The notes beneath the pieces were generated by a model. It had not been told where the DNA came from and did not search any database. It was given only the letters and a program-made list of their open reading frames with translations. The position numbers and the translations under genes are program-made. From Flavobacterium frigoris (GTDB lineage Bacteria; Bacteroidota; Bacteroidia; Flavobacteriales; Flavobacteriaceae): a stretch of DNA of 64,000 nucleotides. Location of the stretch: assembly GCF_900111075.1 (NCBI RefSeq), contig NZ_FOFZ01000003.1, positions 62,001 to 126,000 of the forward strand. The letters run 5' to 3'. Positions 13,806 to 27,760 of this stretch are shown in pieces. Position 1 is the first letter of the stretch, and every line of letters begins with the position of its first letter.

Positions 13806-14945
13806 TTATTTATTTTGTAATTCGTAGTCTTCGAATGATGAATAATTTTTCAAAACTCCTTTACTTTTATTCACTTTTGCTAAAATAGTTCTATCTATAT
13901 TTTTTTGTAAATATGAAGTTAATTCTAAAAAACGTGTTTGTGGAATATGAAAAAAGCCACCTGATTTAAAGTCTTTTTTCACTTTACCATAAAAACTTGC
14001 GTAGTTAAATTCTTGTCCTTTAGGTTTTAGTTCAAAATTTTTAAATTCGGAATATCTATCAGCTAAATATTTTGAATAATTATACATAATAACATTTTGT
14101 CCGATTGAGCCTTCAGGGTATTTTTGGATGACCTTTTTTTTCTGCATTTGGTTTTTCACAGTCAAATTCACTACATTATTGTTTCCCAAAATAGGATTGT
14201 GAAATGTACTATTTGATATTTCAATATTTGATTTATTCGCCTTATCCTCTAATAAATATTCATTTTTTAAATTCGATTTTTTTATTAGAACTTCATCTTC
14301 TGTAATTGCTTTTTCACCAATTAATGAATGACAATTGGGACAAACAGAAATTAAATTTTCTAATATTGTATTTGCTGAATTCTCATCAATATGATGAAAT
14401 TGAATTCTCCCTGCATCTGAAAAGTCACAAAAGGCACATTTGTTTTTTGATTCTTGTAGAAGCCTAACTTTTTGTCTGTAGGTTGGGTTTTTTCGTTTTT
14501 CTGTCATATTTCTTTTACTCGTATTTTTTTCGTAGTGAATTTTACTAAATTCAGCACATTCGCTATAATGTCTATAATTGAAATTTTTGAATTTATCATT
14601 TCTTAAATCATCCCATTCGCCACTTATACTGGCTGTATTTTGAGAATGTCTAAATCCGATTGAGTCAAATAAGTTAACTTCTGGACAAAAATTTTCATAA
14701 ACCTTGTATTGTTTTCCATTTATATATGAAGGTATTTCTCCTGCCAAATTAATAGATTTTTCATCAAAATCGGATTTTAATAAATCATTTTTTTGCAGTA
14801 TTTCTACGATACTTTTATTTTCGCCACCTTTCAATTCATTTAAAAAATATAGAGTATAAGCTCTTCTCGTGCAATATTCCAAAATAGGGCATCTTGCAGG
14901 AAGTTTTTTGTTTTCACTTATTTCAAAATATTCTCTTTCGTTCAT
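13806..14945 (-). CDS. HNH endonuclease-like protein
   Basis: A 379-residue protein with a central HNH nuclease: zinc pair C170-x2-C173, catalytic QFHHID with H184/H185, N197 in ENLIS, and the second zinc pair and His in CPNCH (202-206). The N-terminal 150 residues carry two extra Cys (C19, C25, in ARCPILEYC) and no known domain. Residues ~240-265 are an Asn/Ile-rich linker (NSTFHNPILGNNNVV), and the C-terminal ~100 residues are basic. HNH proteins of this build cut DNA in restriction, retrohoming or anti-phage systems; which applies is not visible. It starts 17 bases past the core of site F and is followed by site E, so it is a single-gene cassette. Confidence 0.75.
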   Translation of the reverse strand: MNEREYFEISENKKLPARCPILEYCTRRAYTLYFLNELKGGENKSIVEILQKNDLLKSDFDEKSINLAGEIPSYINGKQYKVYENFCPEVNLFDSIGFRHSQNTASISGEWDDLRNDKFKNFNYRHYSECAEFSKIHYEKNTSKRNMTEKRKNPTYRQKVRLLQESKNKCAFCDFSDAGRIQFHHIDENSANTILENLISVCPNCHSLIGEKAITEDEVLIKKSNLKNEYLLEDKANKSNIEISNSTFHNPILGNNNVVNLTVKNQMQKKKVIQKYPEGSIGQNVIMYNYSKYLADRYSEFKNFELKPKGQEFNYASFYGKVKKDFKSGGFFHIPQTRFLELTSYLQKNIDRTILAKVNKSKGVLKNYSSFEDYELQNK

Positions 14946-14961
14946 TTTTTTTTAAGGTTAC

Positions 14962-15019
14962 AGCTAACCGCGGGTTCATTGTTGGCTTTTCAAGCCCCAC
15001 AAACCCATACCGGTTATGC
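14962..15019 (-). repeat. attC-like palindromic site F (3' of the NdpA/TM unit)
   Basis: Read on the minus strand it runs from GCATAAC to GTTAGCT. Stems are AACCG/CGGTT, GGGTT/AACCC and GGCT/AGCC around a TGAAA loop, a long imperfect hairpin as in attC. The TAA stop of the upstream membrane-protein gene lies inside the first core, as is common in integron cassettes. Its central 20 bases are identical to site E. Confidence 0.5.
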
Positions 15020-16291
15020 GACGCTTTTATTTTCTGTTAGTTCTAAAATAATATTTCTAGCAAACGCAAATATTCCAAAGGAGATTATACTAATCATAAA
15101 AACAAATCCTGAAGATAATTCTAACTTATTAAAAATTAATATGTTTAATCCGATGTTTGTTATCCCAATAATCCAAAAGTAAGTTTCGCAAATGTTTTTT
15201 AACTGCTTAACTCTCGTATCTAATCGTGTTTTTATTTCTGTAAAATATTCTCTTTCTTCAGGGAAAACAGCAAAAAATTTATTTGAAATTATTTTTTTAT
15301 AATCTCTTTCTGCAATAGTCTTTATGTATGATAAATCATTAAAATTTATTTTTAATAAAAGAATCAAATAAATATTAGTAACTAATATTGTTATAATAAT
15401 CATCAATAAAAATTGAACTGAAATTTGAATCTTTTCTAATGCAAACAGTGTTGTAGCAATAACAATCGGTAGTCCAATTATTTTTTGTGTTATATTAGAT
15501 AGTATATCTGAAATTTCTTTAAAGTATTTGGTTTTATATTCATCATATTCCTTTTTAATAGAATCGATGGACAAATTATTCAAATATATTTCAAAATTTA
15601 TTTTCGCATTTTTAATTATTTTATCTAAATTTTCAAAAAGCTCATTAACTCTAATTTCTTTTTTACTTTTTGACGAAAATTCAATAATTGAATTTTTTAA
15701 AAATTTTGGTAAATGTAAATTTTCTTTAATAAAACAAGATTTAAATTCTTCCAACGAAATACTATAATTAATTTTGCTATCGAAGGAATGTATTTCATTA
15801 AAGTAATTTATGATTAACCGTCCTTTTTCACTCAAACTTGTAAATACGATTTTTCTATTAGTTTTGTTTACATAATCTACAAAATGAAATGCTTCATCAG
15901 AATCCATTTCCTGTGATTTTATAAATTCAATAAATTCGTAGAATGACCTTGAATTAGAAAAGAAAAAATTATTTTCATCTACAATGAAATTAGTAAAAGT
16001 TATATTATCAATTAAAGAGAGCGGAACGCTTTCTTTATTGATAATTAAAACGTTTCCCTTTTTTACTACTTCATTTAATTTTAGGTAATCTTCTAACTTT
16101 TCAAATATATTTAAATCTAAATCTTTTTTTTCAACAGTTATAAATTCTTCCCTGATTTTTAGAAATTTTAAACTTAAAGCAGATAATTGTTTTTCAATAC
16201 TCTTACAATATTGAAAAACAATATCGTCTGAATTTATAGAAAATTCAGATTCTTTAAATACCTTAAATATATTTTTATGAAAATCTATCAT
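15014..16291 (-). CDS. four-helix membrane protein of unknown function
   Basis: A 425-residue protein with a soluble, acidic, helical N-terminal ~265 residues followed by two hydrophobic hairpins (about 270-285/290-313 and 371-388/394-412) separated by a charged ~55-residue loop. No enzyme motif is visible. The ATG at 16291 overlaps the stop of the upstream NdpA-like gene by one base (TAATG), so the two are translationally coupled and should be made together. A cytosolic DNA-associated partner plus a membrane protein is a layout seen in several abortive-infection systems, in which the membrane protein is the effector. That role is inferred from architecture and neighbours only; I do not recognise the family. 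Confidence 0.75.
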   Translation of the reverse strand: MIDFHKNIFKVFKESEFSINSDDIVFQYCKSIEKQLSALSLKFLKIREEFITVEKKDLDLNIFEKLEDYLKLNEVVKKGNVLIINKESVPLSLIDNITFTNFIVDENNFFFSNSRSFYEFIEFIKSQEMDSDEAFHFVDYVNKTNRKIVFTSLSEKGRLIINYFNEIHSFDSKINYSISLEEFKSCFIKENLHLPKFLKNSIIEFSSKSKKEIRVNELFENLDKIIKNAKINFEIYLNNLSIDSIKKEYDEYKTKYFKEISDILSNITQKIIGLPIVIATTLFALEKIQISVQFLLMIIITILVTNIYLILLLKINFNDLSYIKTIAERDYKKIISNKFFAVFPEEREYFTEIKTRLDTRVKQLKNICETYFWIIGITNIGLNILIFNKLELSSGFVFMISIISFGIFAFARNIILELTENKSVA

Positions 16292-17304
16292 TAGTTGTTT
16301 TCTATTTCAACTCTTAATGCATTTGCAAAACTTGCTGATTCGATTATAACAATATTTGGATCATCTTCTGAAATTCTAATTTTTTCGTTTAAAGTTCCTC
16401 TAGAAAATTTTAAATTGATACCATCTCGATTTACTTCAAGTTTAACAAATTTTTTTAGTTGTCTTTTATTATATCTAAATTCAGTGTCTAATGATATATT
16501 GTTTTCATTTGCATAATCCGAAACGGTATTTGGGTTTCCGTAAAAATGTTGGCTTAAATCTCTAATGTTAACAGTGTCATTTGGACTTGAAGAAGTATAA
16601 CTATAAACTAAATTTCTAAAAGTTTCAATTGGATACGGTAAGGTAGTATCTGGATCAATTGGTGGAACAATTTGGGTTATAATTGTATATAAAGCTTTAG
16701 TATAATCAATACTGCTTTCAATTTGTTGAATAGAAATCCAAGCTTTAAAATATTCAGAAACTTCTTGTTGTCTTAATTGTGTAAATGAAAGATAATTTAT
16801 TTCTTCTTCGTCAATTCGATTCTCATTTATTCTACAAGCCATAGCCAGATTTTTTGTATCTACATATTCTACAGTCTGAATTGAAAATGAATTTCGAGTT
16901 TTTCTTAAAATTTTACCTTCAACATCACGAATTAAAAAAATAGAGACAAAATTATAGCCATTTTCAATATATTCTGCAAAAATAAAATATCCACCCGTTG
17001 CAAAAATAACTGGTTTTATGAATCCAACCAAATTTCCCATAACAAGTTTCGTAAAAGAAATAAAATCGTTATCGTTTCTATTATTTTCTCTATATTCAGC
17101 AAATTTTTCCGGAAAATATTTTCCTTCTGAATTGTCAAATATTGCATATAAAATCTTGTCACTTTTATAACTATCAGAAAGGGCAGATATCAAAGCTGTC
17201 GATTCATCGTTATTTGGAACTAATTCCTCTGAAAGAACGATTTCAACGTTATTACTTTCTTTTTCTTTTATTAATTCGTGAATTATTATTTTCCTTAATT
17301 CCAT
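16291..17304 (-). CDS. NdpA/YejK-like nucleoid-associated protein
   Basis: The 337-residue protein matches the general plan of the 37-kDa nucleoid-associated family (NdpA/YejK, Pfam PF04245). An N-terminal IIIHELIKEK segment leads into an alpha/beta domain with AIFDNSEGKYFPEKF, then a central segment with VIFATGGYFIFAEYI and FVSIFLIRD. These are followed by a helical DNA-interaction part and a C-terminal domain with ISLDTEFRYNKRQLKKFVKLEV. YejK proteins bind DNA and nucleoid partners. The assignment rests on pattern recognition, so it is moderate. It is the first gene of a two-gene unit with the membrane protein, overlapping it by one base, and stands in a run of toxin and nuclease genes. A sensor role for invading or altered DNA is plausible but unproven. 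Confidence 0.6.
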   Translation of the reverse strand: MELRKIIIHELIKEKESNNVEIVLSEELVPNNDESTALISALSDSYKSDKILYAIFDNSEGKYFPEKFAEYRENNRNDNDFISFTKLVMGNLVGFIKPVIFATGGYFIFAEYIENGYNFVSIFLIRDVEGKILRKTRNSFSIQTVEYVDTKNLAMACRINENRIDEEEINYLSFTQLRQQEVSEYFKAWISIQQIESSIDYTKALYTIITQIVPPIDPDTTLPYPIETFRNLVYSYTSSSPNDTVNIRDLSQHFYGNPNTVSDYANENNISLDTEFRYNKRQLKKFVKLEVNRDGINLKFSRGTLNEKIRISEDDPNIVIIESASFANALRVEIENN

Positions 17305-17818: not shown

Positions 17819-17834
17819 TTAAGCATCTTTTTTT
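17807..17834. terminator. perfect 28-nt palindromic terminator of the HTH gene
   Basis: Fourteen bases AAAAAAAGATGCTT are followed at once by their reverse complement. The stop codon of the minus-strand HTH gene lies within it, and both strands end in seven T, so it can act in both directions. Confidence 0.75.
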
Positions 17835-18145
17835 GTTTTTAATATGAAATCATCATTTATTCTAGAACCATATTTTATTTCTATTAATTTGAAAAAATCC
17901 GATAAAGCAATTTTTTTGTAAAAACAAATGATTGCTAATGTTGACATCGGTACTCTATAAGGTTGGTCATCTAGGATTTTCTTTATAATATGTCGATGTA
18001 CTCCTAATTCTTGTGCTTGAGAGAGAACAGGCCTATTAACATGTAACCATTCATTTCTTATGTAATCACATATAAATTGGTCAAGCAGAAATACAACTGC
18101 TTCTTTCTTAGCGTCTGAAGATTTATTATTTGTTTTACTAGCCAT
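17819..18145 (-). CDS. small HTH (XRE-like) transcription regulator
   Basis: A 108-residue protein. Residues ~38-70 (PVLSQAQELGVHRHIIKKIL) fit a helix-turn-helix in which SQAQELGVHRHII is the turn plus recognition helix. A second helical part (STLAIICFYKKIALSDFFKLI) follows, as in small XRE-type regulators that time or restrict gene expression. The gene diverges from a structured non-coding element and from susC. A perfect inverted repeat TGTCAC-GATA-GTGACA (18180-18195) lies 35 bases before its start, a natural site for autorepression and for control of the divergent promoter at 18233. It ends in a perfect palindromic terminator. Confidence 0.7.
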   Translation of the reverse strand: MASKTNNKSSDAKKEAVVFLLDQFICDYIRNEWLHVNRPVLSQAQELGVHRHIIKKILDDQPYRVPMSTLAIICFYKKIALSDFFKLIEIKYGSRINDDFILKTKKDA

Positions 18146-18179
18146 TTAGACAAAAGAATATATTATTAACCATATTTAT

Positions 18180-18195
18180 TGTCACGATAGTGACA
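18180..18195. promoter_or_regulatory. probable operator TGTCAC-GATA-GTGACA
   Basis: A perfect inverted repeat with 6-bp arms and a 4-base spacer lies between the divergent HTH gene and the TATATTTG promoter of the structured element. It is probably bound by the HTH protein; this is an inference from position and symmetry. Confidence 0.55.
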
Positions 18196-18232
18196 GTTTG
18201 ATATTTTTTTAGTAAGTTTGTAATTGAATACA

Positions 18233-18240
18233 TATATTTG
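18233..18240 (+). promoter_or_regulatory. -7 promoter element TATATTTG of the structured RNA
   Basis: An exact TAnnTTTG match 32 bases before the first stem of the structured element. A transcript would start near 18247. No TTG lies at the best upstream spacing, so it may need an activator. Confidence 0.5.
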
Positions 18241-18246
18241 CGATTC

Positions 18247-18476
18247 TTCATATAAAATATTTGAAGCATTCGCTTAGAATCTCGCGTTAGAAAACTGGTA
18301 ATTTGATAGAAACGAGATAATAAGTAAGATGCTCACGTCCCATGGCGTGGGCTCACTTATTGTTTCCAGGTATACCAGTACCTCTAACGCAGTAAGCTGA
18401 GTTCCATGCCATTTTTTATGCCTATTATTTAGGCTAAACTCAACTTCCATTCTAAGCACTGCCTCTTCATTTTTTT
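18247..18476 (+). ncRNA. candidate multibranched structured RNA
   Basis: A closing stem GCTTAGAAT (18272-18280) / ATTCTAAGC (18449-18457) encloses two arms. Arm 1 stacks GCGTTAGA/TCTAACGC (18284, 18383), ACTGGTA/TACCAGT (18294, 18373), GAAAC/GTTTC (18309, 18362), AATAAGT/ACTTATT (18319, 18355) and GCTCACG/CGTGGGC (18331, 18346). Arm 2 pairs AAGCTGAGTT/AACTCAACTT (18394, 18437) with an inner GCCTA/TAGGC (18420, 18430). The pairs nest cleanly and total about 58 bp in 186 nt, far more than chance. A T-run follows at 18470-18476. A 61-codon minus-strand frame inside it has no protein features. I do not recognise it as a known RNA family. Function could be a small RNA or a long leader of the susC operon. 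Confidence 0.6.
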
Positions 18477-18624
18477 ACGGTCTCGCATTGATCCTTACTG
18501 TTTAACCGTATAAACTTTCGCTTGCCTATGATTTAAAAAAAGAATCTCTACTAAATGCCTGTGCTGTCTTGTTCTTTATTTTGAATTAGTAAAAATGCAG
18601 TACAGGCTATTAAAACAAAAAAAA

Positions 18625-18663
18625 TGGCCCTCTAACTCTTCTTGGCGGTTGACTAGAGGACCA
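18625..18663 (+). promoter_or_regulatory. hairpin in the susC leader
   Basis: TGGCCCTCTA (18625-18634) pairs with TAGAGGACCA (18654-18663), ten bases with one mismatch, 42 bases before the susC start. No T-run follows, so it is more likely a mRNA leader structure or binding site than a terminator. Confidence 0.45.
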
Positions 18664-18704
18664 TTGCTAACAAAACTAACGTTTCAATTAACTAACCCAA
18701 TATT

Positions 18705-21700
18705 ATGAAAAAAAAATCATTTTACAAGGGTGGATTGGCTTTTTGGTACCTGATTGTATTTGGGTTCCTAATCTCCTACACCCCTGCTTTATCAAAAACT
18801 GCCCTGAAGCCAATTCAGTATTCGCCGCAACAAAACCAAATAAGCGGCACCATCACTGATGGTACAGGACCTTTAGTTGGCGTAACCATAACTATAAAAG
18901 GACAACAAAAAGGAGCTATCTCTGACTTTGACGGGAAATTTACTATCAATGCATTACCCAACGATAAGCTTATTTTTAGCTTTATGGGCTTCAAAACCCT
19001 AACTATTCCTGTTGATGGACGCTCTATCTTAACTATTAGTATGCAAGAAGATGCGACTTCACTACAGGAAGTCAAAATTAATGCGGGCTACTATTCCGTT
19101 AAAGAAAGCGAACGTACTGGAAGTATCGCTAAAATTACGGCAAAGGATATTGAAAAACAGCCTGTGACTAATCCGTTAGCAGCCATGCAAGGACGTATGT
19201 CTGGCGTCAATATTACACAAGCCACAGGAGTACCTGGTGGTGGCTTTACTATCCAAATTCGTGGGATTAATAGCATCCGTGCCGAAGGCAACGAGCCACT
19301 ATACATCGTGGATGGCGTGCCTTACAGCTCGCAATCGCTGGGTTTCAGTTCCGCTTCTTCAGGTATACTTGCGGGTACTACCAGTCCATTAAACGGTATT
19401 AATCCATCTGACTTAGAAAGTATAGAAGTACTCAAAGATGCAGATGCAACCGCTATTTATGGATCTCGTGGTGCTAATGGTGTTGTCCTGATTACTACCA
19501 AAAAAGGCACAGCAGGAAAAACAAAATTTAACTTAAATGCCTACAGCAGCTTTGGAACACTAACCCGTACACTCGATTTAATGCATACGGACCAATACTT
19601 GTCTATGCGCCGTGAAGCTTTCTCAAATGATGGGATCACAACCTATCCTGGTTATGCCTATGACGTCAATGGAAAATGGGATCAAACAAGGTATACCAAT
19701 TGGCAAAAAGAACTAATTGGAGGGACTGCAACAACCAATAATCTACAGGCTAGCTTATCTGGAGGCAGTTCTGGAACCCAATATTTAATAAGCGGTACAA
19801 TGCACAAGGAAACCACCGTTTTTCCAGGAGATGCAAAGTACGGTAAAGGGGCGGTACATACCAGCCTGACTCACAGTACTGAAGACGGTCGTTTCAAAAT
19901 AAACCTTTCAGCAACTTATACTGCCGATAAAAACATACTTCCCCCATCTGATTTTACCTACAAGGCAGCGGTTCTTGCTCCTAATGCACCCGCTTTGTAT
20001 GATGCAAATGGAAATCTAAACTGGGAAAAAAATTCCTGGACCAACCCTCTAGCTACCTTAAATGGAAGATATACTGCTACTACCGCTGCGTTGATTGCCA
20101 ATACATTGCTATCCTATCAAATTTTAGAGGGTTTAGAATTAAAAACGAGCCTAAGTTACACCGATAACCGAGTAGAGGAAAGTCGCATCAATCCATCTAC
20201 AATGTATAATCCTGCGTTTGGAATTGGTAGTGAACGTTCTACTCTCTACCTAAACAATGCATCAAGCCATTCATGGACAATTGAACCACAACTAAGTTGG
20301 CTAAAAAAAATAGGTAAAAGCGAGATTAATATCCTTGCAGGAGCTACTTTTCAGGATCAAAAGTCCAGTCAGTTAGCACAAACAGGCTCGGGGTTTCCCA
20401 GTAACGGTTTGATATATAATCTTGCCGCCGCATCGCGCTTAAGTATTTCAAGCAACACCTTTTCTGAATATAAATACCAAGCTTTTTTTGGCCGAATTAA
20501 TTTCAATTATAAAAGCAAATACATCCTAAATGCAACGGGCAGACGCGATGGTTCCAGCCGATTTGGACCTGATAACCGCTTTGCTAATTTTGCCGCTGTT
20601 GGTGCCGCTTGGGTATTCTCAAAAGAATCCTTACTTGATACTAGTACCTTTCTTAGCTTTGGAAAACTTAGAGCTAGCTATGGAACCTCTGGAAACGATC
20701 AAATTGGCGATTACCAGTTCTTAGACACCTATGATGTTACAGGAAACAATTATAATGGTATCATCGGACTCCAGCCTTCGAGACTATTCAATCCTAATTT
20801 TGCTTGGGAAACGAATAAAAAATTAGAAATTGCTATAGAATTAGGATTTGTTAACGATCGTGTTTTTTTAAGTACAGCTTATTACCGCAACCGATCTTCT
20901 AACCAATTAGTAGGTATCCCATTAGCAGGAACTACAGGGTTTTCTTCCTTACAAGCCAATCTAAATGCAACAGTTCAAAATTCGGGATTAGAACTGGAAT
21001 TACTAGTCGAACCATTCCGCTCTACAAACTGGAATTGGACTTCGAATTTCAATCTAAGTCTACCCACGAACAAGTTGTTGGAATTTCCTAATCTAGAAAG
21101 CTCTCCCTACGCTAATAGATACCTAATTGGACAATCTATTAGTATTCAAAAAGTATATCACTATACAGGAATCAATCCACAAAACGGACTGTATTCTTTC
21201 GAAGATTATGATAGTGATGGACAAATTAGTAGCCCCAACGATCAGCAATGGGTTGAAGACAATGCTCCCAAATGGTTTGGAGGTTTTGCAAATCAATTAA
21301 GCTATAAAAATTGGTCCATGGATTTCTTATTCCAATTTGTAAAACAAAAAGCACGAAATTATTTATACAACACTTCTTGGGCTGGAGATATGGTCAATCA
21401 ACCTATAGCTATAGAAAACCATTGGCCGGTGGATGGATCAAACTCTCACACGCAATTGTATACTACTGGAGAAAATGGAGAAGCGCTCGATGCTTGGTCT
21501 TCTTACAGCAATAGTAGTGCAACAATCAGTGATGCATCTTACATCCGTTTAAAAAGTGTTAGTCTATCGTACACAATTCCTACCAAAGGATCGGCTATTA
21601 ATACTGCTAGAGTCTATTTACAGGCACAAAATCTACTGACTTTTACGAACTACAAAGGAGCAGATCCTGAAAACCAATCTTCCTTTTTCATAGCACCATT

Positions 21701-21737
21701 GCGTCAGATCTCATTGGGTGTGCAACTGGGTTTATAA
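18705..21737 (+). CDS. SusC/RagA-type TonB-dependent outer membrane transporter
   Basis: A 1010-residue protein with a hydrophobic signal segment (residues ~10-30). A CarboxypepD_reg-like domain follows at ~45-110 (ISGTITDGTGPLVGVTITIKG, then SDFDGKFTI). The plug has the family hallmarks at ~155-265 (AMQGRMSGVNI, IRGINSI, PLYIVDGVPY, SIEVLKDADATAIYGSRGANGVV), then the 22-strand barrel with C-terminal ISLGVQLGL. It forms the import channel with the SusD-like lipoprotein encoded next. The operon continues with an S9 peptidase and no glycoside hydrolase, so the cargo is more likely a peptide than a glycan. The leader holds a stable hairpin, and a structured element and an HTH gene lie upstream. 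Confidence 0.95.
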   Translation: MKKKSFYKGGLAFWYLIVFGFLISYTPALSKTALKPIQYSPQQNQISGTITDGTGPLVGVTITIKGQQKGAISDFDGKFTINALPNDKLIFSFMGFKTLTIPVDGRSILTISMQEDATSLQEVKINAGYYSVKESERTGSIAKITAKDIEKQPVTNPLAAMQGRMSGVNITQATGVPGGGFTIQIRGINSIRAEGNEPLYIVDGVPYSSQSLGFSSASSGILAGTTSPLNGINPSDLESIEVLKDADATAIYGSRGANGVVLITTKKGTAGKTKFNLNAYSSFGTLTRTLDLMHTDQYLSMRREAFSNDGITTYPGYAYDVNGKWDQTRYTNWQKELIGGTATTNNLQASLSGGSSGTQYLISGTMHKETTVFPGDAKYGKGAVHTSLTHSTEDGRFKINLSATYTADKNILPPSDFTYKAAVLAPNAPALYDANGNLNWEKNSWTNPLATLNGRYTATTAALIANTLLSYQILEGLELKTSLSYTDNRVEESRINPSTMYNPAFGIGSERSTLYLNNASSHSWTIEPQLSWLKKIGKSEINILAGATFQDQKSSQLAQTGSGFPSNGLIYNLAAASRLSISSNTFSEYKYQAFFGRINFNYKSKYILNATGRRDGSSRFGPDNRFANFAAVGAAWVFSKESLLDTSTFLSFGKLRASYGTSGNDQIGDYQFLDTYDVTGNNYNGIIGLQPSRLFNPNFAWETNKKLEIAIELGFVNDRVFLSTAYYRNRSSNQLVGIPLAGTTGFSSLQANLNATVQNSGLELELLVEPFRSTNWNWTSNFNLSLPTNKLLEFPNLESSPYANRYLIGQSISIQKVYHYTGINPQNGLYSFEDYDSDGQISSPNDQQWVEDNAPKWFGGFANQLSYKNWSMDFLFQFVKQKARNYLYNTSWAGDMVNQPIAIENHWPVDGSNSHTQLYTTGENGEALDAWSSYSNSSATISDASYIRLKSVSLSYTIPTKGSAINTARVYLQAQNLLTFTNYKGADPENQSSFFIAPLRQISLGVQLGL

Positions 21738-21753
21738 CATAAAAATTAACAAG

Positions 21754-23151
21754 ATGAAATATTACAGACAAATACAAGTTGGATTAATAGCTGCTTTAAT
21801 AGTTATTATTTGCCTTTGGCTTTTTAGTTGCGATAGTTTTACTGAAACGGATCTCCCGAAGACGCAACTAATCAAAACTGCGGTTTTTCAAGATGTAAAA
21901 ACAGCTACCGCAGCTCTTTCCGACTGCTATGCACAAATGCGAGATTACAGCATGATTTCAGGGAATTCTGATGGACTTTCCAGTCTGTTAGGAAATTATG
22001 CGGATGAATTAACTTACTACGGGGTTAGTGACTCCCCCTTACAAAACTTCTATTCCCATACACTGTTACCTTCCAATAGTGGGGTTTCCGTTTTATGGAA
22101 TTCTAGCTACAATCAAATTTACGCTGCAAACGCTATAGTAGAAGGTGTAGATAATTCAACAGCGATTACAGGAGATAATCGAAACCGCTTGAAGGGAGAA
22201 GCGCTATTTATCCGCGCTTTTATACACTTTAATTTGGTAAACTTGTTTGGAGATATTCCCTATATCACCAGTACCGATTATAAAATAAACACTATGATTT
22301 CAAAGCAGACCCAAGCAGACGTCTACAACCAAATTATAGCAGACTTACTAGAAGCAAAAGAGCTATTACCCGAGTCGTATACTTCCGCTCAACGAATCCG
22401 TCCCAATAAATATACCGTTTCGGCCTTACTGGCTAGAGTATTTTTATATACGGAAAACTGGCAGTTAGCTGAAAATGAAGCGAGTGTTATTATCAATAAA
22501 ACAGCCCTTTACCAGTGGCAGGATAACTTGGATTTAGTTTTCTTGAAAGACAGTCCTTCCACGATTTGGCAATTGCATCCTGGTGTTGCGGGCTTAAATA
22601 CAATAGAAGGTCGAACTTTTATTTTTACTAGTGCGCCGCCAAATATTGAAGCTATAAGTCCGGACTTACTCAATGCCTTTGAAACTGGAGATCAAAGAAA
22701 AAATCAGTGGTTGGGTAGTGTGAATGATGGAACAGACACCTATTATTTCCCTTTTAAATACAAGCTCGATACGAATTCAGGAACATCTCAGGAGTATTCC
22801 ATTATTTTTAGATTAGACGAGCAATACTTAATTCGAGCTGAAGCTAGAGTACATTTAGGAAAACTAGCTGAAGCCAAAAACGATATCAATAAGATAAGAC
22901 AAAGAGCAACTTTAACAAATACGAGTTCTAGTACTCCAGAGGAACTATCACAAGCTGTCTTACAGGAGCGAAGAGTGGAATTGTTTACTGAATTCGGGCA
23001 CCGTTGGTTTGACTTAAAACGTACTGGAAAAGCTGGTACTGTTTTGAGTGTAATTAAACCAGCATGGAAAGATAGAGATAATTTACTTCCACTACCTGCA
23101 TCTGAACTTTTAGCAAACAGTCATTTACTACCTCAAAATCAAGGATACTAA
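21754..23151 (+). CDS. SusD/RagB-type surface lipoprotein
   Basis: The start is placed at the ATG 21754 (MKYYRQIQ); the longer frame back to 21718 begins with GTG inside susC. A signal segment is followed by the lipobox LWLFSC, so the mature protein is anchored through Cys27. TPR-like helices (ALFIRAFIHFNLVNLFGDIPYI) and the C-terminal RRVELFTEFGHRWFDLKRTGKA are hallmarks of SusD proteins. It forms the lid of the SusC channel and binds the cargo at the cell surface. It lies 16 bases after susC and 3 bases before the peptidase gene, an obvious operon. Confidence 0.92.
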   Translation: MKYYRQIQVGLIAALIVIICLWLFSCDSFTETDLPKTQLIKTAVFQDVKTATAALSDCYAQMRDYSMISGNSDGLSSLLGNYADELTYYGVSDSPLQNFYSHTLLPSNSGVSVLWNSSYNQIYAANAIVEGVDNSTAITGDNRNRLKGEALFIRAFIHFNLVNLFGDIPYITSTDYKINTMISKQTQADVYNQIIADLLEAKELLPESYTSAQRIRPNKYTVSALLARVFLYTENWQLAENEASVIINKTALYQWQDNLDLVFLKDSPSTIWQLHPGVAGLNTIEGRTFIFTSAPPNIEAISPDLLNAFETGDQRKNQWLGSVNDGTDTYYFPFKYKLDTNSGTSQEYSIIFRLDEQYLIRAEARVHLGKLAEAKNDINKIRQRATLTNTSSSTPEELSQAVLQERRVELFTEFGHRWFDLKRTGKAGTVLSVIKPAWKDRDNLLPLPASELLANSHLLPQNQGY

Positions 23152-23154
23152 ATT

Positions 23155-25794
23155 ATGAAAGACACTATATTATTAATCAAAAAGCATATGATTTTACTTC
23201 TTTTTTTATTGGGATCTGTAACTATATGGGGACAGATTTCAGTAAAAAGAAAAGTTTCTCCTGCTGATTACAGCCAATGGAGTACACTTAACTCCGAGAA
23301 ATTAGCTGCTGATGGTCTGTGGGTGAGTTATAATCTGTCGTATGATTCAGGAAAGGATACTATTATTGTACAGCAAACTTATGGTAGCAAAAAATATACT
23401 TTTCCTTTAGCAACAGACGAAAATTTCAGTCGAGATGGAAAATGGTGGGCTGCAATAGCACCCGAAAAAGGACTTGGGATATTGAATTTAAAAACTGGAA
23501 AATGCCAATGGACTGCAGATGTTGAATCGTATGAATTTCTAGCAAATGGTAAATATTTGGCTTTCCTTAAAAAAACAGGACTGGAACAGGAACTCTGTAT
23601 TCTGAATTTGGGAACTGGACAAAAATATAATGCAAAAGACATTGCGGAATATCGTTCTAGTCCTAATGGGAAAATCGCGGCTTTTATAACAAAGCAACAA
23701 AACGCCGTAAAATTAATTTGGATTGACGACTACTTTCGTACTTCGGAAATAATTCAGAGTTCCGCAAAACGCTTTAAAAACTTGATTTGGAATAAAGAGG
23801 CAAATGCACTGGCTTTTTTACAGGAACTCCCGCAGGATCAATACCAAGGAACCAATCACAAACTGTATTTCGTCAATCATATGGATGGGGTTCCCAACCT
23901 GCATATTCTGGATCCCTTACTTGCTGAAGATATACTTAAGGGGCTGAAAATTGTAACACCGCCAGCAAAAAACCCTTTGGAGATGGCAACGGATGGCAAA
24001 AAGGTTTTCTTTTATACAACCGCTCCGAAATTGGAAAGCAAGGACAAGGAAATCGTACAGGTATGGGATGGTGCAACACCATGGACCTACCCTAGCCAAA
24101 AGAATTCAGAAAGCTGGCAATACAATTCCAAAATGGTAGTGTGGTGGCCCGAGGAAAACAAATTATTTAATATAGGAACCGATGAGTTTCCAAAAACGCA
24201 GTTAATGGCAGATGGAAATTATGCTTTAAACCATAATCCGCTGCAATATGAACCACAGTATGAAATTGCCAGTCCTGTTGATTATGTACTAACAGATGTG
24301 CGTACTGGACAAAGCAAAAAAATACTGGAAAAACAGATCCGAAAATATGATTTTATCAAGAGTTCCGGGTCCGGAAATTTCATCAACTATTTTAAAGAAA
24401 AGCATTGGTGGGTTTACAATATTAAGGAGGATAGCCATATCAATCTGACATTGCCTTTGGGAATCCCCATAGATGAGGTGGATTATGATTGTGGAGGCAC
24501 TGCCCCGCCTTACGGAAGTCCGGGATGGTCAGTGGATGAAAAATATCTGATTGTTTATGATCAATATGATATTTGGTTATTGTCTGCCGATGGAAAATCA
24601 CAAAAAAGAATAACACAAGGCCGTGAAAAACGTATTCAATACAGAATCGCAGAGGACAGCTATACGGATTCACTGTTGTTAGGAAATGCGGTATTGAGTG
24701 GGAATAAATTTGACCTGTCTAAAGGGTTATTTGTGGAAGCTATTGGAGAAGACAAATCTTCAGGCTATTTTTATTGGCATCCAGAAGGAAATATAAAAAA
24801 AATGGTGTATAAAGACCGAATGATAGATCACTTGATAAAGGCAGAACAATCCGCAAGCTACATATACAGAGAACAGTCTTTTAAATTATCCCCAAGATTG
24901 ATGTTTAAGACTGAGAAAGAGAAACAGCCAAAAATTTTGATACAAACCAACTTACAACAGAACCATTTTGATTGGGGGCATAACGAACTGATTTCGTATA
25001 CCGACTCTAGAGGGACTCCACTACAGGGAGTGTTATACTATCCGTCCAATTTTCAAAAAGGCAAACAGTACCCCATGATCGTACATATTTACGAAAAACA
25101 ATCGAATATTCTACATCATTATTTCAATCCAGCAGAAAATGCAATAGATGCATTTCCTCTTACCAATTACACTTTGGACGGTTATCTTGTTTTATATCCT
25201 GATATAGCGTATCAAGTAGGTGAACCCGGTAAATCAGCTGCGGATTGTGTAGTAGCAGCAGTAAAAACAGTGACTGCAAAAGGGATAGTAGAAGAGCAAC
25301 ACATTGGATTGACGGGAGCCTCATTTGGCGGTTATGAAACAGCTTATATTGTGTCGCAAACCAATATTTTTGCTGCAGCGGTAGCAGGTTGTCCACTTAC
25401 CGACTTTGTAAGCCAATACCTTAGTCTGGATGGTGCCGGCGGTACTACTAGGATGTGGAGATACGAATCGCAGCAACAACGCATGGGAGTTTCCCTCTTT
25501 GAAGATTATCAGGGATACATTGAGAACTCAGTTGTAGCACAGGCTGCAAAAATCAACACCCCATTATTAATATGGTCTGGCCTGGAGGATACAATGGTAA
25601 GTTGGACGCAAGGACTCGAACTGCATTTAGCCTTGCGTAGGCTTCAAAAGCCAAACCAATTTTTAGTATATCCAGGAGAAAACCACTCCTTTTTAAAACG
25701 GGAGACAAAAAATGACTTGACACAGCGTACCAAAGAATGGTTCGATCATTATCTTAAGGAGAAACCATTTAGAGATAATTTGAGTAGCAATTAA
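23155..25794 (+). CDS. S9 family (prolyl oligopeptidase-like) peptidase
   Basis: An 879-residue exported enzyme with signal segment LLLFLLGSVTIWGQ (residues ~14-28). An N-terminal beta-propeller (~40-600) is followed by a C-terminal alpha/beta hydrolase. The triad is visible as S723 in GASFGG, D812 in GLEDTM and H844 in ENHSF. The family trims short peptides whose size is limited by the propeller. Coupling to a SusCD pair with only 3 bases between genes points to degradation of imported or surface-captured peptides in the periplasm. The operon ends at a 14-bp hairpin. Substrate preference cannot be read from sequence. Confidence 0.9.
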   Translation: MKDTILLIKKHMILLLFLLGSVTIWGQISVKRKVSPADYSQWSTLNSEKLAADGLWVSYNLSYDSGKDTIIVQQTYGSKKYTFPLATDENFSRDGKWWAAIAPEKGLGILNLKTGKCQWTADVESYEFLANGKYLAFLKKTGLEQELCILNLGTGQKYNAKDIAEYRSSPNGKIAAFITKQQNAVKLIWIDDYFRTSEIIQSSAKRFKNLIWNKEANALAFLQELPQDQYQGTNHKLYFVNHMDGVPNLHILDPLLAEDILKGLKIVTPPAKNPLEMATDGKKVFFYTTAPKLESKDKEIVQVWDGATPWTYPSQKNSESWQYNSKMVVWWPEENKLFNIGTDEFPKTQLMADGNYALNHNPLQYEPQYEIASPVDYVLTDVRTGQSKKILEKQIRKYDFIKSSGSGNFINYFKEKHWWVYNIKEDSHINLTLPLGIPIDEVDYDCGGTAPPYGSPGWSVDEKYLIVYDQYDIWLLSADGKSQKRITQGREKRIQYRIAEDSYTDSLLLGNAVLSGNKFDLSKGLFVEAIGEDKSSGYFYWHPEGNIKKMVYKDRMIDHLIKAEQSASYIYREQSFKLSPRLMFKTEKEKQPKILIQTNLQQNHFDWGHNELISYTDSRGTPLQGVLYYPSNFQKGKQYPMIVHIYEKQSNILHHYFNPAENAIDAFPLTNYTLDGYLVLYPDIAYQVGEPGKSAADCVVAAVKTVTAKGIVEEQHIGLTGASFGGYETAYIVSQTNIFAAAVAGCPLTDFVSQYLSLDGAGGTTRMWRYESQQQRMGVSLFEDYQGYIENSVVAQAAKINTPLLIWSGLEDTMVSWTQGLELHLALRRLQKPNQFLVYPGENHSFLKRETKNDLTQRTKEWFDHYLKEKPFRDNLSSN

Positions 25795-25865: not shown

Positions 25866-26129
25866 TTAAATTTTTTTAAATAGCGCATCCGGACAATCGG
25901 TTCCCTCAGCATTCAGACGGTAAAGCTGCTGACCACTAGAGGTACACATTTGCGGATTTGGAACTGTTGAGCACTTTACGTTTGTTTCCTGACAGGAAAT
26001 AGGAAGACGTCCATTAACATCAATTGTGCTGCTTAAATTAGAACTTGAAACATTGTTAGCGAAAGCTCCCGCAATCGCAAAAACAACTACTGCAATGGGA
26101 AATCCCATTTTTAAAAAATTTGTTTTCAT
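25866..26129 (-). CDS. DUF6520-like small secreted Cys-rich peptide
   Basis: The start is set at ATG 26129 (MKTNFLKMGFPIAVVVFAIAG); the longer frame to 26231 would need a TTG. The 87-residue product has a clear signal peptide cleaved near FANN. The mature part carries the pattern C-x(6)-C, VPNPQMC and a final CP, four Cys in all, as in the DUF6520 family common in Flavobacteriia, often in several copies. Function is unknown. It follows the MauE/DoxX-like gene by about 98 bases on the same strand, so its disulfides may depend on that partner. It converges on the SusCD-peptidase operon, which could handle a peptide of this type. Confidence 0.75.
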   Translation of the reverse strand: MKTNFLKMGFPIAVVVFAIAGAFANNVSSSNLSSTIDVNGRLPISCQETNVKCSTVPNPQMCTSSGQQLYRLNAEGTDCPDALFKKI

Positions 26130-26227
26130 AATACTAAAATTAAAAGTTAATGATCTACTCTTTTTTACAGGTTTTCGATCGCAATCCTGATACTGCGCAG
26201 TATATTTTAATTTCTTTTTAATAAAGA

Positions 26228-27760
26228 TCAAGGTGCGTCTACAATCTTCGATTCCCTTGGTTGATAAGCATTAGTCCGTATCTTATATGTAACGATAGAA
26301 TAATCGTATAGGGCTACAAAAACATCCTCAACTACCCTAACATCAGTCATTTTTTGATTTAGAAGATTAGGAACATAAAAACTAAATAAATAAGTTTTTT
26401 TCAAAAAATCATAAACATCAATTATGGATGATTTGTCCCACATCTCTTCTGTTTCATAACGCCCCATTAGACCGGCTTGAACAAAAAGATAATTACCAAA
26501 AGTTGCTGTTCTTTTATTTACTATGATTGGAGGAGCACTTAGCTTACTTTGATTTTTTGAATGAATAGTAGTTACTTTAATTTGCGCTCGACTAATTTTA
26601 TCAACAGTATGACCTCGATGTACTAAATTTAAGCTATCATCACATACGAGATACTCATTGCGATAATAGTAAGTATAAAGGACTTTTTTTAATTGCTCAT
26701 TATAAATTAAATTACCATCGGTATCAAAAACACCATCAATTTGCTTTTCCAATAGCTGCGGTGCTAATCTTACTTTAATCACATCATTAATTGTTATAGT
26801 TCCTAAAACATTTTCATGATTTTTACTGCTTACTGAACGAATAGCAAAAGACTCCTTATTTATTGGCTCTCCTTTAACAAAATAAACTTTATCGTACATC
26901 CATAAACTGGCTTTCCAATCGGTAAGATTACCTCTAAAGATGCAAGGAACGGTACCGTCCATCAAATAAAAATACGGTGGTTGGACACGTACTTGTACAG
27001 AACGAAAAGGAAGGTTAGATTTGGAAAGTCTTATAACATAACTTTTTTTCGTTTGTAACCCAATGTCGATTACTATGACATGAAGTGGTGCCTCATAATT
27101 ACCTAGATAAACTTTGTTCTTCTCGATTCCAGCAATATAGAAGGACGGATGTTTTAAATCTAATTCATTAATTTTTGTAACTGGATGATGCGGAAAACGA
27201 CGAATAAAGTTGTTGCGATGATGAATAATATCTTCCGATAATACAAAAAGTAAAACTACAACAGCAATACTGCTCAATAAGGTGATAGAGACCGTTCTAA
27301 AAGTTCTATTATACTGATTCTTACTACCAACATATTTTGGGTTAAATAGTAACAGCATTATACCAGTAAATGCCAGTAGAACGAATAAAATATTAAACAC
27401 CAAATGCTCAGTCCAATCTAAATTTTCAAGTATTCCTCCACAAGAGCAAGGAATAGAAGAACTATAATTCAAGATAATGATAATGTATGTAGTAAACATA
27501 ATCATTAGGCTAAAAGCTGCAAATAGTCCTACTAACCGATATCTTGGAATTAGCAGTGTCAAGGCTATCAAAATTTCTACAATTGGAACGCCCCAGGATA
27601 CCCATCCTGCAAAAGCACTTAACAAGGGAGACTGTCCCAGCTGCACCTCAAAGTTTTCAAAATCCAATAATTTACTCACAGCAGCATAAACAAAAAGCAG
27701 TATGTACAACAGACAAATTATCTCAATGATTCCATTCTTTATTGTTGCGCTTACTTTCAT
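26228..27760 (-). CDS. MauE/DoxX-like redox membrane protein with periplasmic domain
   Basis: A 510-residue protein. The N-terminal ~170 residues hold four to five membrane helices with the MauE/DoxX signature AAVSKLLDFENF and a Cys pair in PCSCGG (C105, C107), which is typical of proteins that pass redox equivalents for disulfide formation. The C-terminal ~340 residues are soluble with repeating strands (about 190-500), perhaps a beta-propeller or receptor-like domain. Such fusions recur in flavobacteria next to DUF6520-type peptides and SusCD genes. A TAATTTTG element on the minus strand (27888-27895) fits the -7 consensus and may drive it. Confidence 0.75.
   Translation of the reverse strand: MKVSATIKNGIIEIICLLYILLFVYAAVSKLLDFENFEVQLGQSPLLSAFAGWVSWGVPIVEILIALTLLIPRYRLVGLFAAFSLMIMFTTYIIIILNYSSSIPCSCGGILENLDWTEHLVFNILFVLLAFTGIMLLLFNPKYVGSKNQYNRTFRTVSITLLSSIAVVVLLFVLSEDIIHHRNNFIRRFPHHPVTKINELDLKHPSFYIAGIEKNKVYLGNYEAPLHVIVIDIGLQTKKSYVIRLSKSNLPFRSVQVRVQPPYFYLMDGTVPCIFRGNLTDWKASLWMYDKVYFVKGEPINKESFAIRSVSSKNHENVLGTITINDVIKVRLAPQLLEKQIDGVFDTDGNLIYNEQLKKVLYTYYYRNEYLVCDDSLNLVHRGHTVDKISRAQIKVTTIHSKNQSKLSAPPIIVNKRTATFGNYLFVQAGLMGRYETEEMWDKSSIIDVYDFLKKTYLFSFYVPNLLNQKMTDVRVVEDVFVALYDYSIVTYKIRTNAYQPRESKIVDAP

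Follow-up and report, generated by a model that had tools for sequence, protein, structure and literature searches.

A conserved structured RNA family of Bacteroidota with two alternative folds, mostly ahead of SusC transporter genes

The window analysed here, a stretch of 64,000 nucleotides from the 4.05-Mb genome of Flavobacterium frigoris, carries at 18240-18417 what is, judged from sequence, a member of a structured RNA family conserved in Bacteroidota. The RNA lies in a leader of 559 bp that separates a divergent HTH gene (minus strand) from a SusC-SusD-S9 peptidase operon (18705-25794, plus strand), and the observation is confirmed as real and larger than a preliminary description of this DNA had made it. 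Since the leader is conserved, has two mutually exclusive folds, one of them terminator-like, and precedes a preferred class of target, an attenuator is the best explanation, and we consider it probable, without being sure of it, that the leader RNA works as a two-state attenuator of transcription. SusC transporters determine which substances these bacteria take up, and phages may plausibly use them as receptors. The RNA family found mostly ahead of these transporters is large, pseudoknotted and missing from Rfam, and it opens a testable question, that of RNA-switch control of surface receptors in Bacteroidota and of the signal sensed.

The leader and its relatives

The operon downstream of the leader encodes a SusC/RagA TonB-linked outer membrane protein (18705-21737; TIGR04056, 726 bits), a SusD family lipoprotein (21718-23151) and an S9 family peptidase (23155-25794), all on the plus strand. 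Facing it on the minus strand (25866-27760) are the genes for a MauE-domain protein and a DUF6520 small protein. Past the HTH gene lies a further minus-strand block (13806-17304) encoding an HNH protein, a protein without Pfam match and an NdpA/YejK-like protein; judged by eye, the genes past the HTH gene vary between copies of the family. The idea of a defence island was rejected, PADLOC giving no match at E<=0.001 for six proteins encoded next to the leader in the window, and ARAGORN found no tRNA or tmRNA gene in the window. The same genome holds a second copy of the RNA, 237 kb off and 89% identical across most of its length, which also precedes a SusC-SusD pair but with a different HTH gene and a different palindrome. 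When the two copies are compared, one stem has both of its sides changed together. Alignment with this paralogue also revealed a second hairpin immediately 5' of the susC start (18626-18662, plus strand); its loop is variable, and it is kept in both genome copies (at about 2308-2345 in the paralogous locus, L004).

Copies of the RNA occur in 16 of 60 relatives. A pattern scan of named genomes returned at least 120 stretches, and more exist; the 80 titles among the matches listed were, judged by name, all of Bacteroidota genera or MAGs. With a covariance model, 51 of 101 genomes of the genus matched at E<=1e-4, with 1-6 matches each, and strong matches at E<=1e-20 were found in 181 of 397 genomes of the genus. 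Across the phylum, the model matched 49 of 395 genomes and 22 of 170 genera. Rfam 15 gave no match at gathering score in the window; at a relaxed E-value, the best match within 18140-18740 reached 24 bits, where the gathering score is 105, and lay on the opposite strand. In 20 loci with more distant copies, the only Rfam matches were the rteR sRNA and a tRNA, both away from the element. No description of the RNA was found in the titles and abstract openings of the open-access literature, and a prior description is not excluded. As to a viral link, one P6 pattern had no exact match in viral contigs, and no phage record matched for two queries.

Two alternative folds

The main alignment was built from sequence only and comprises 124 non-redundant copies (<88% identity) out of 141 among the matches listed. 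The copies came from BLAST or from a pattern of the P6 region, and all of them match that pattern, so that the P6 stretch is fixed by the search; the 145 pattern matches include some loci twice, via two collections. In the first fold, state A (PA, PK and P2 to P6), 92.5% of 5324 cells are paired, 389 cells are double-changed against 128 in shuffles, and compensatory changes are found in 21 of 43 pairs. If the partner is slid by 1-3 columns, only 37-44% of cells remain paired.

All elements of this fold lie on the plus strand. The PA hairpin (18240-18273, with 18240-18249 pairing to 18263-18273) has 94.9% of its cells paired and compensatory changes in 3 of 9 pairs. PK joins UCUC (18280-18283) to GAGA (18314-18317), with 98.8% of cells paired and compensatory change in 3 of its 4 pairs; the variants among copies are UCUC/GAGA, UCCC/GGGA and UCUU/AAGA, and the four inner pairs are kept by 16 to 18 of 19 to 21 distant copies. 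Helices P2, P3 and P4 together span 18285-18389. Both P2 (about 18285-18291/18383-18389, 94.5% paired) and P3 (18294-18300/18373-18379, 99.7% paired) carry many double changes, and one position of P2 has more than four pair types, while P4 (18309-18313/18362-18366) was poorly aligned in the sequence-only alignment and has 52% of its cells paired. The P5 and P6 hairpin (18319-18361), which holds the switch strand in state A, is 99.6-100% paired; P6 and one strand of P5 were set by the search pattern, so their high pairing says little. A proposed outer stem, UUGCGA/UCGCA, is not claimed, because its 5' side hardly varies and covariation is uninformative. A leader peptide was considered and rejected, as the spacing in the P6 loop varies among copies without keeping frame (by eye).

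Read as its reverse complement, the segment 3' of P2 nearly matches P6 and P5 on their 3' strands, and from it a second fold, state T, can be drawn. Its helix, of 16 pairs as counted, joins 18344-18359, a stretch that shares bases with those 3' strands, to 18393-18410, and is mutually exclusive with P5/P6. In the alignment of 124 copies, 96.7% of 1978 cells are paired (25-56% in slid versions), with 33 double-changed cells against 12 in shuffles; compensatory changes are few, in 3 of 16 pairs. The 5' strand was set by the search pattern, so that the pairing is partly by construction and only the 3' strand is free, and this strand varies almost solely in ways that keep the pairs. A U-run (18412-18417, plus strand) follows like the tail of an intrinsic terminator: TTTT stands within 10 nt after the helix in 120 of the copies and is missing in the other 4, and in several copies, by eye, the U-run can fall in the loop of another hairpin. 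The loop of T is about 33 nt, longer than in textbook terminators. A terminator consensus scan that covers loops of 3-8 only did not flag T and flagged the operator palindrome instead. Within the loop lies hairpin H (GGUA/UACC, 18369-18382), which fits only state T. It is weakly supported in the main set, while in the distant copies its third pair is kept in 21 of 21, by UA, CG and GC, and the remaining pairs in 19-20 of 21. An attenuator leader is marked by two mutually exclusive conserved helices, one of them followed by a U-run, and this mark the family bears. By constrained folding of the 124 copies, with PK not counted, the states are on average -2.6 kcal/mol apart (sd 5.5). Such near-equal predicted energies are taken as those of a balanced switch, and may partly reflect the choice of constraints.

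Beyond the U-run is the 3' strand (18449-18457) of a closing stem, P1, whose 5' strand lies at 18272-18280; since the 3' strand follows the U-run, P1 can form only in read-through RNA. The preliminary description had given this stem as a perfect 9-bp helix. It is present as such here, and 8-9 of its 9 positions are Watson-Crick pairs in 45 of 124 copies, where about 1.3 would be expected from shuffled flanks, but the other 79 copies have fewer than 8 pairs. Its middle base covaries by an A/T swap: A goes with TTCTAAGC in 17 copies and with TTCAAAGC in 1, T with TTCAAAGC in 11 and with TTCTAAGC in none. TTCTTAGC, which leaves a mismatch, occurs in 34 copies, and a P1 motif of this kind is missing from 55.

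The stable fold described earlier holds up, 18255-18480 folding at -71.4 kcal/mol (z -7.2; none of 200 shuffles as good), though the opposite strand folds about equally well (z -6.8), so that fold energy alone cannot choose the strand. The cloverleaf-like, multi-helix drawing missed the conserved pseudoknot and the alternative terminator-like helix. The proposed covariance check on homologues found compensatory changes in abundance; together with the recurrence of HTH gene, RNA and SusC gene, they favour the earlier suggestion of a regulated structured RNA, or long riboregulator, of the SusCD-peptidase operon, its transcription being inferred.

Promoter, operator and the divergent HTH gene

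The divergent gene (17819-18145, minus strand) encodes a small Cro/C1-type HTH protein of 108 aa, which matches Pfam HTH_26 at E 3e-4, just below the curated cut-off (21.3 against 22 bits). At 18180-18195 lies the perfect palindrome TGTCACGATAGTGACA, its putative operator; both this palindrome and the HTH ORF are as first described. The promoter element then proposed, TATATTTG at 18233-18240, is probably not the -7 box, and the likely -7 element of the leader RNA is TAAGTTTG (18213-18220, plus strand), about 20 nt upstream. Of 117 named-genome loci among the matches listed, 100 have a TAnnTTTG ahead of the element, and TTTGCG runs into the 5' hairpin of the RNA. At the -33 place there is no conserved TTTG; an operator arm is found there instead.

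TGTCACGATAGTGACA has its centre at 18187.5, 32.5 nt ahead of the final G in the -7 box, and this spacing recurs. The count was made in 100 loci, the 17 of 117 without TAnnTTTG being left out: in 63 of them the best palindrome has its centre 31.5-33.5 nt ahead of the -7 G (3.5 per 100 in shuffles), and in 84 the centre falls 25.5-34.5 nt ahead of it (8.8 per 100 in shuffles). From the palindrome to the HTH start codon the distance is most often 41.5-42.5 nt (36 of 100), then 53.5-57.5 nt (26 of 100). In some loci, for example L240, L249, L251 and L281, a search at the usual place found no palindrome. The geometry fits an activator at about -40, and a repressor covering -33 would fit as well; while the geometry and the gene context can be read from the sequence, binding by the HTH protein, and its activating or repressing effect, are inferences.

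A divergent upstream ORF accompanies 141 of the 145 pattern matches, and 3 of the 4 without one have almost no upstream DNA in the locus. By eye, it was of the HTH kind in all 61 copies inspected from 22 genomes; in an enlarged high-scoring set a divergent ORF is present in 112 of 114, one of them not HTH-like. Three strong copies of a single genome (L323-L325, genome G692) have no recognisable divergent HTH gene, and L323 has only a short unrelated ORF. Units can also occur in series: a locus of Sinomicrobium oceani (L054) has two HTH-RNA units in tandem, 637 bp apart, and two further loci (L041, L051) have two consecutive small HTH genes, as if units had been stacked.

The HTH proteins are highly diverse. 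In an alignment of 137 ORFs (4 of 141, cut off at the locus end, were left out), mean column identity is 12%, with HTH_26 recognised in 95 and HTH_3 in 87 (E<=0.01, each model counted separately). One HTH cluster often means one shared palindrome, across genera too, as with TATTCGATACAAATTTGTATCGAATA beside L247, L256, L289 and L292, and TGTCACGATAGTGACA, or a palindrome like it, recurs in other genomes beside HTH genes of one and the same cluster. Within the largest cluster, however, the palindromes are unlike one another. Avoidance of like HTH types among copies of the same genome was considered and is not claimed: the direction fits and significance is lacking, with 2 similar within-genome pairs against 4.7 expected at a threshold of 0.4 (112 copies, 45 genomes; P 0.14), none against 2.0 expected at 0.6 (P 0.12), and P 0.28 in a smaller set.

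Targets, rival explanations and known systems

In 83 of 122 cases, the nearest downstream ORF with 120 aa or more encodes a TonB plug; in 7 it encodes ECF sigma factor domains, and in 5 AhpC/TSA (2 of 124 ORFs were excluded as duplicates, and 21 of the 145 matches had no such ORF). The downstream genes suggest no common metabolite.

Distant copies were taken from 40-105-bit matches at 20 loci, of which L221 and L222 were excluded, as they carry HTH and SusC genes, leaving 18. L221 is a degenerate copy without P6, with the HTH gene adjoining and a SusC-like gene downstream. Inspection by eye recognised no divergent small Cro/C1 HTH gene in the 18; the divergent gene of L216 is of the HTH_17 kind. 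Integrases of phage type adjoin L218 and L230, and HTH_17 excisionase-like genes are near L216, L225, L231 and L232 (in the last about 1.1 kb away), while the neighbour of L234 has no Pfam match. By eye, 11 of the 18 downstream ORFs begin like secreted proteins or lipoproteins. The sequence of these copies is much changed and the alternative folds are kept: the T duplex is more stable than the mononucleotide-shuffle mean in 18 of 18 (z -1.3 to -4.9); in 11 of them no more than 2 of 200 shuffles reach the same stability, and for the weakest copy 24 of 200 do. L215, L216 and L230 have a poor T-rich tail. Related copies precede a dihydrofolate-reductase-family gene on plasmids of Bacteroides ovatus and Parabacteroides distasonis, and one precedes a hypothetical gene on a Rhizosphaericola plasmid. 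L225, L226, L294 and L295 belong to the gut Bacteroidales type. Two of these, L294 and L295, are plasmids that also carry RteC-domain genes and genes for DNA topoisomerase, and they have the RNA before the dihydrofolate-reductase-family gene; in L226 an rteR sRNA match lies near the RNA copy.

That distant copies precede such different genes is what one would expect of a stand-alone trans-acting sRNA of about 190 nt with T as its own terminator, the SusC operon being either a mere neighbour or expressed by leak-through, and a promoter box upstream and a terminator-like end are also at hand. We nevertheless regard this as unlikely: a simple sRNA end has no need of a switch strand with two good and mutually exclusive pairings, P1 bridges the terminator in some of the copies, and SusC is strongly preferred as the target type. 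Quite improbable, in our view, is a processive antitermination element, whose pseudoknotted fold would modify RNA polymerase to pass terminators in a long operon; a conserved pseudoknotted leader before long operons, with a further stem-loop downstream, would suit it, but the fold is overlapped by a terminator-like helix of its own and the element also precedes short genes.

The preliminary description had held that homologous copies at many loci with transposon-like ends would refute it. That condition holds only by half: the copies are indeed many, but most keep the context of HTH gene, RNA and target, and neither transposase nor terminal repeats were seen around the two copies of this genome, other copies not having been systematically covered. 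A DNA element that merely folds well, such as a recombination or attachment site or a transposon end, is hardly tenable despite the integrase, HTH_17 excisionase-like or plasmid replication genes beside distant copies and the well-folding opposite strand, because G-U pairs are frequent on the plus strand (42 of 124 at one T pair, U-G in 114 of 124 at one P6 pair), where they point to an RNA of that strand and would be C-A mismatches on the other, and the promoter box and U-run lie on the same strand.

For the two-state attenuator, the following course can be envisioned. In state A, the nascent RNA would form PA, PK and P2-P6, sequestering 18344-18359 in P6/P5, and RNA polymerase would pass the U-run into the susC-susD-peptidase genes, after which P1 may close the fold. 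In state T, 18393-18410 would invade P5/P6 and form a helix of about 16 bp that, with the U-run, would stop transcription. Termination, read-through and the direction of control are inferred, as is the trigger. PK adjoins the base of P5, where invasion would start, and therefore whatever stabilises PK/P3, be it a ligand, a protein or an ion, would set the outcome. Initiation would be a separate matter, controlled by the divergent HTH protein from a site between the two divergent promoters, and this protein would decide whether the RNA gets made at all. It is conceivable, and offered only tentatively, that the family represents a new riboswitch-like class of Bacteroidota in which an unknown signal gates surface receptors, a conserved RNA switch being combined with interchangeable HTH/operator units. 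If that modular reading is true, each receptor operon of a cell would be switchable individually.

Riboswitches and transcription-attenuating leaders have a pseudoknotted core in a 5' leader, exclusive antiterminator and terminator helices, a U-run and near-equal energies of the two states. Judged from sequence, the RNA family shares all of these features, and it differs from riboswitches in being without a known ligand, in using the apical P6/P5 hairpin of the core as its switch strand, and in the divergent HTH gene that accompanies nearly all of the high-scoring copies examined. EAR and put are processive antitermination RNAs. Like them, the family may be a structured leader acting on elongation, which is conceivable; unlike them, it has its own conserved terminator-like alternative. 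The controller (C) proteins of restriction-modification systems are small Cro/C1-type HTH proteins whose palindromic operator lies some 40 bp ahead of the target start. A small HTH protein and a palindromic operator at a fixed place are seen here too, though only the geometry is known: the HTH type is alike and the palindrome stands roughly 40 bp before the point where the target transcript is predicted to start, whereas the target is a structured RNA leader with SusC and not a nuclease, and the HTH subfamily changes between loci. In Flavobacterium psychrophilum, a cobalamin riboswitch is reported to lie ahead of a TonB-dependent transporter gene (PMC9723704). The two are alike in being structured leaders of flavobacterial outer-membrane transporter genes; unlike that riboswitch, the leader RNA reaches no Rfam family's gathering score.
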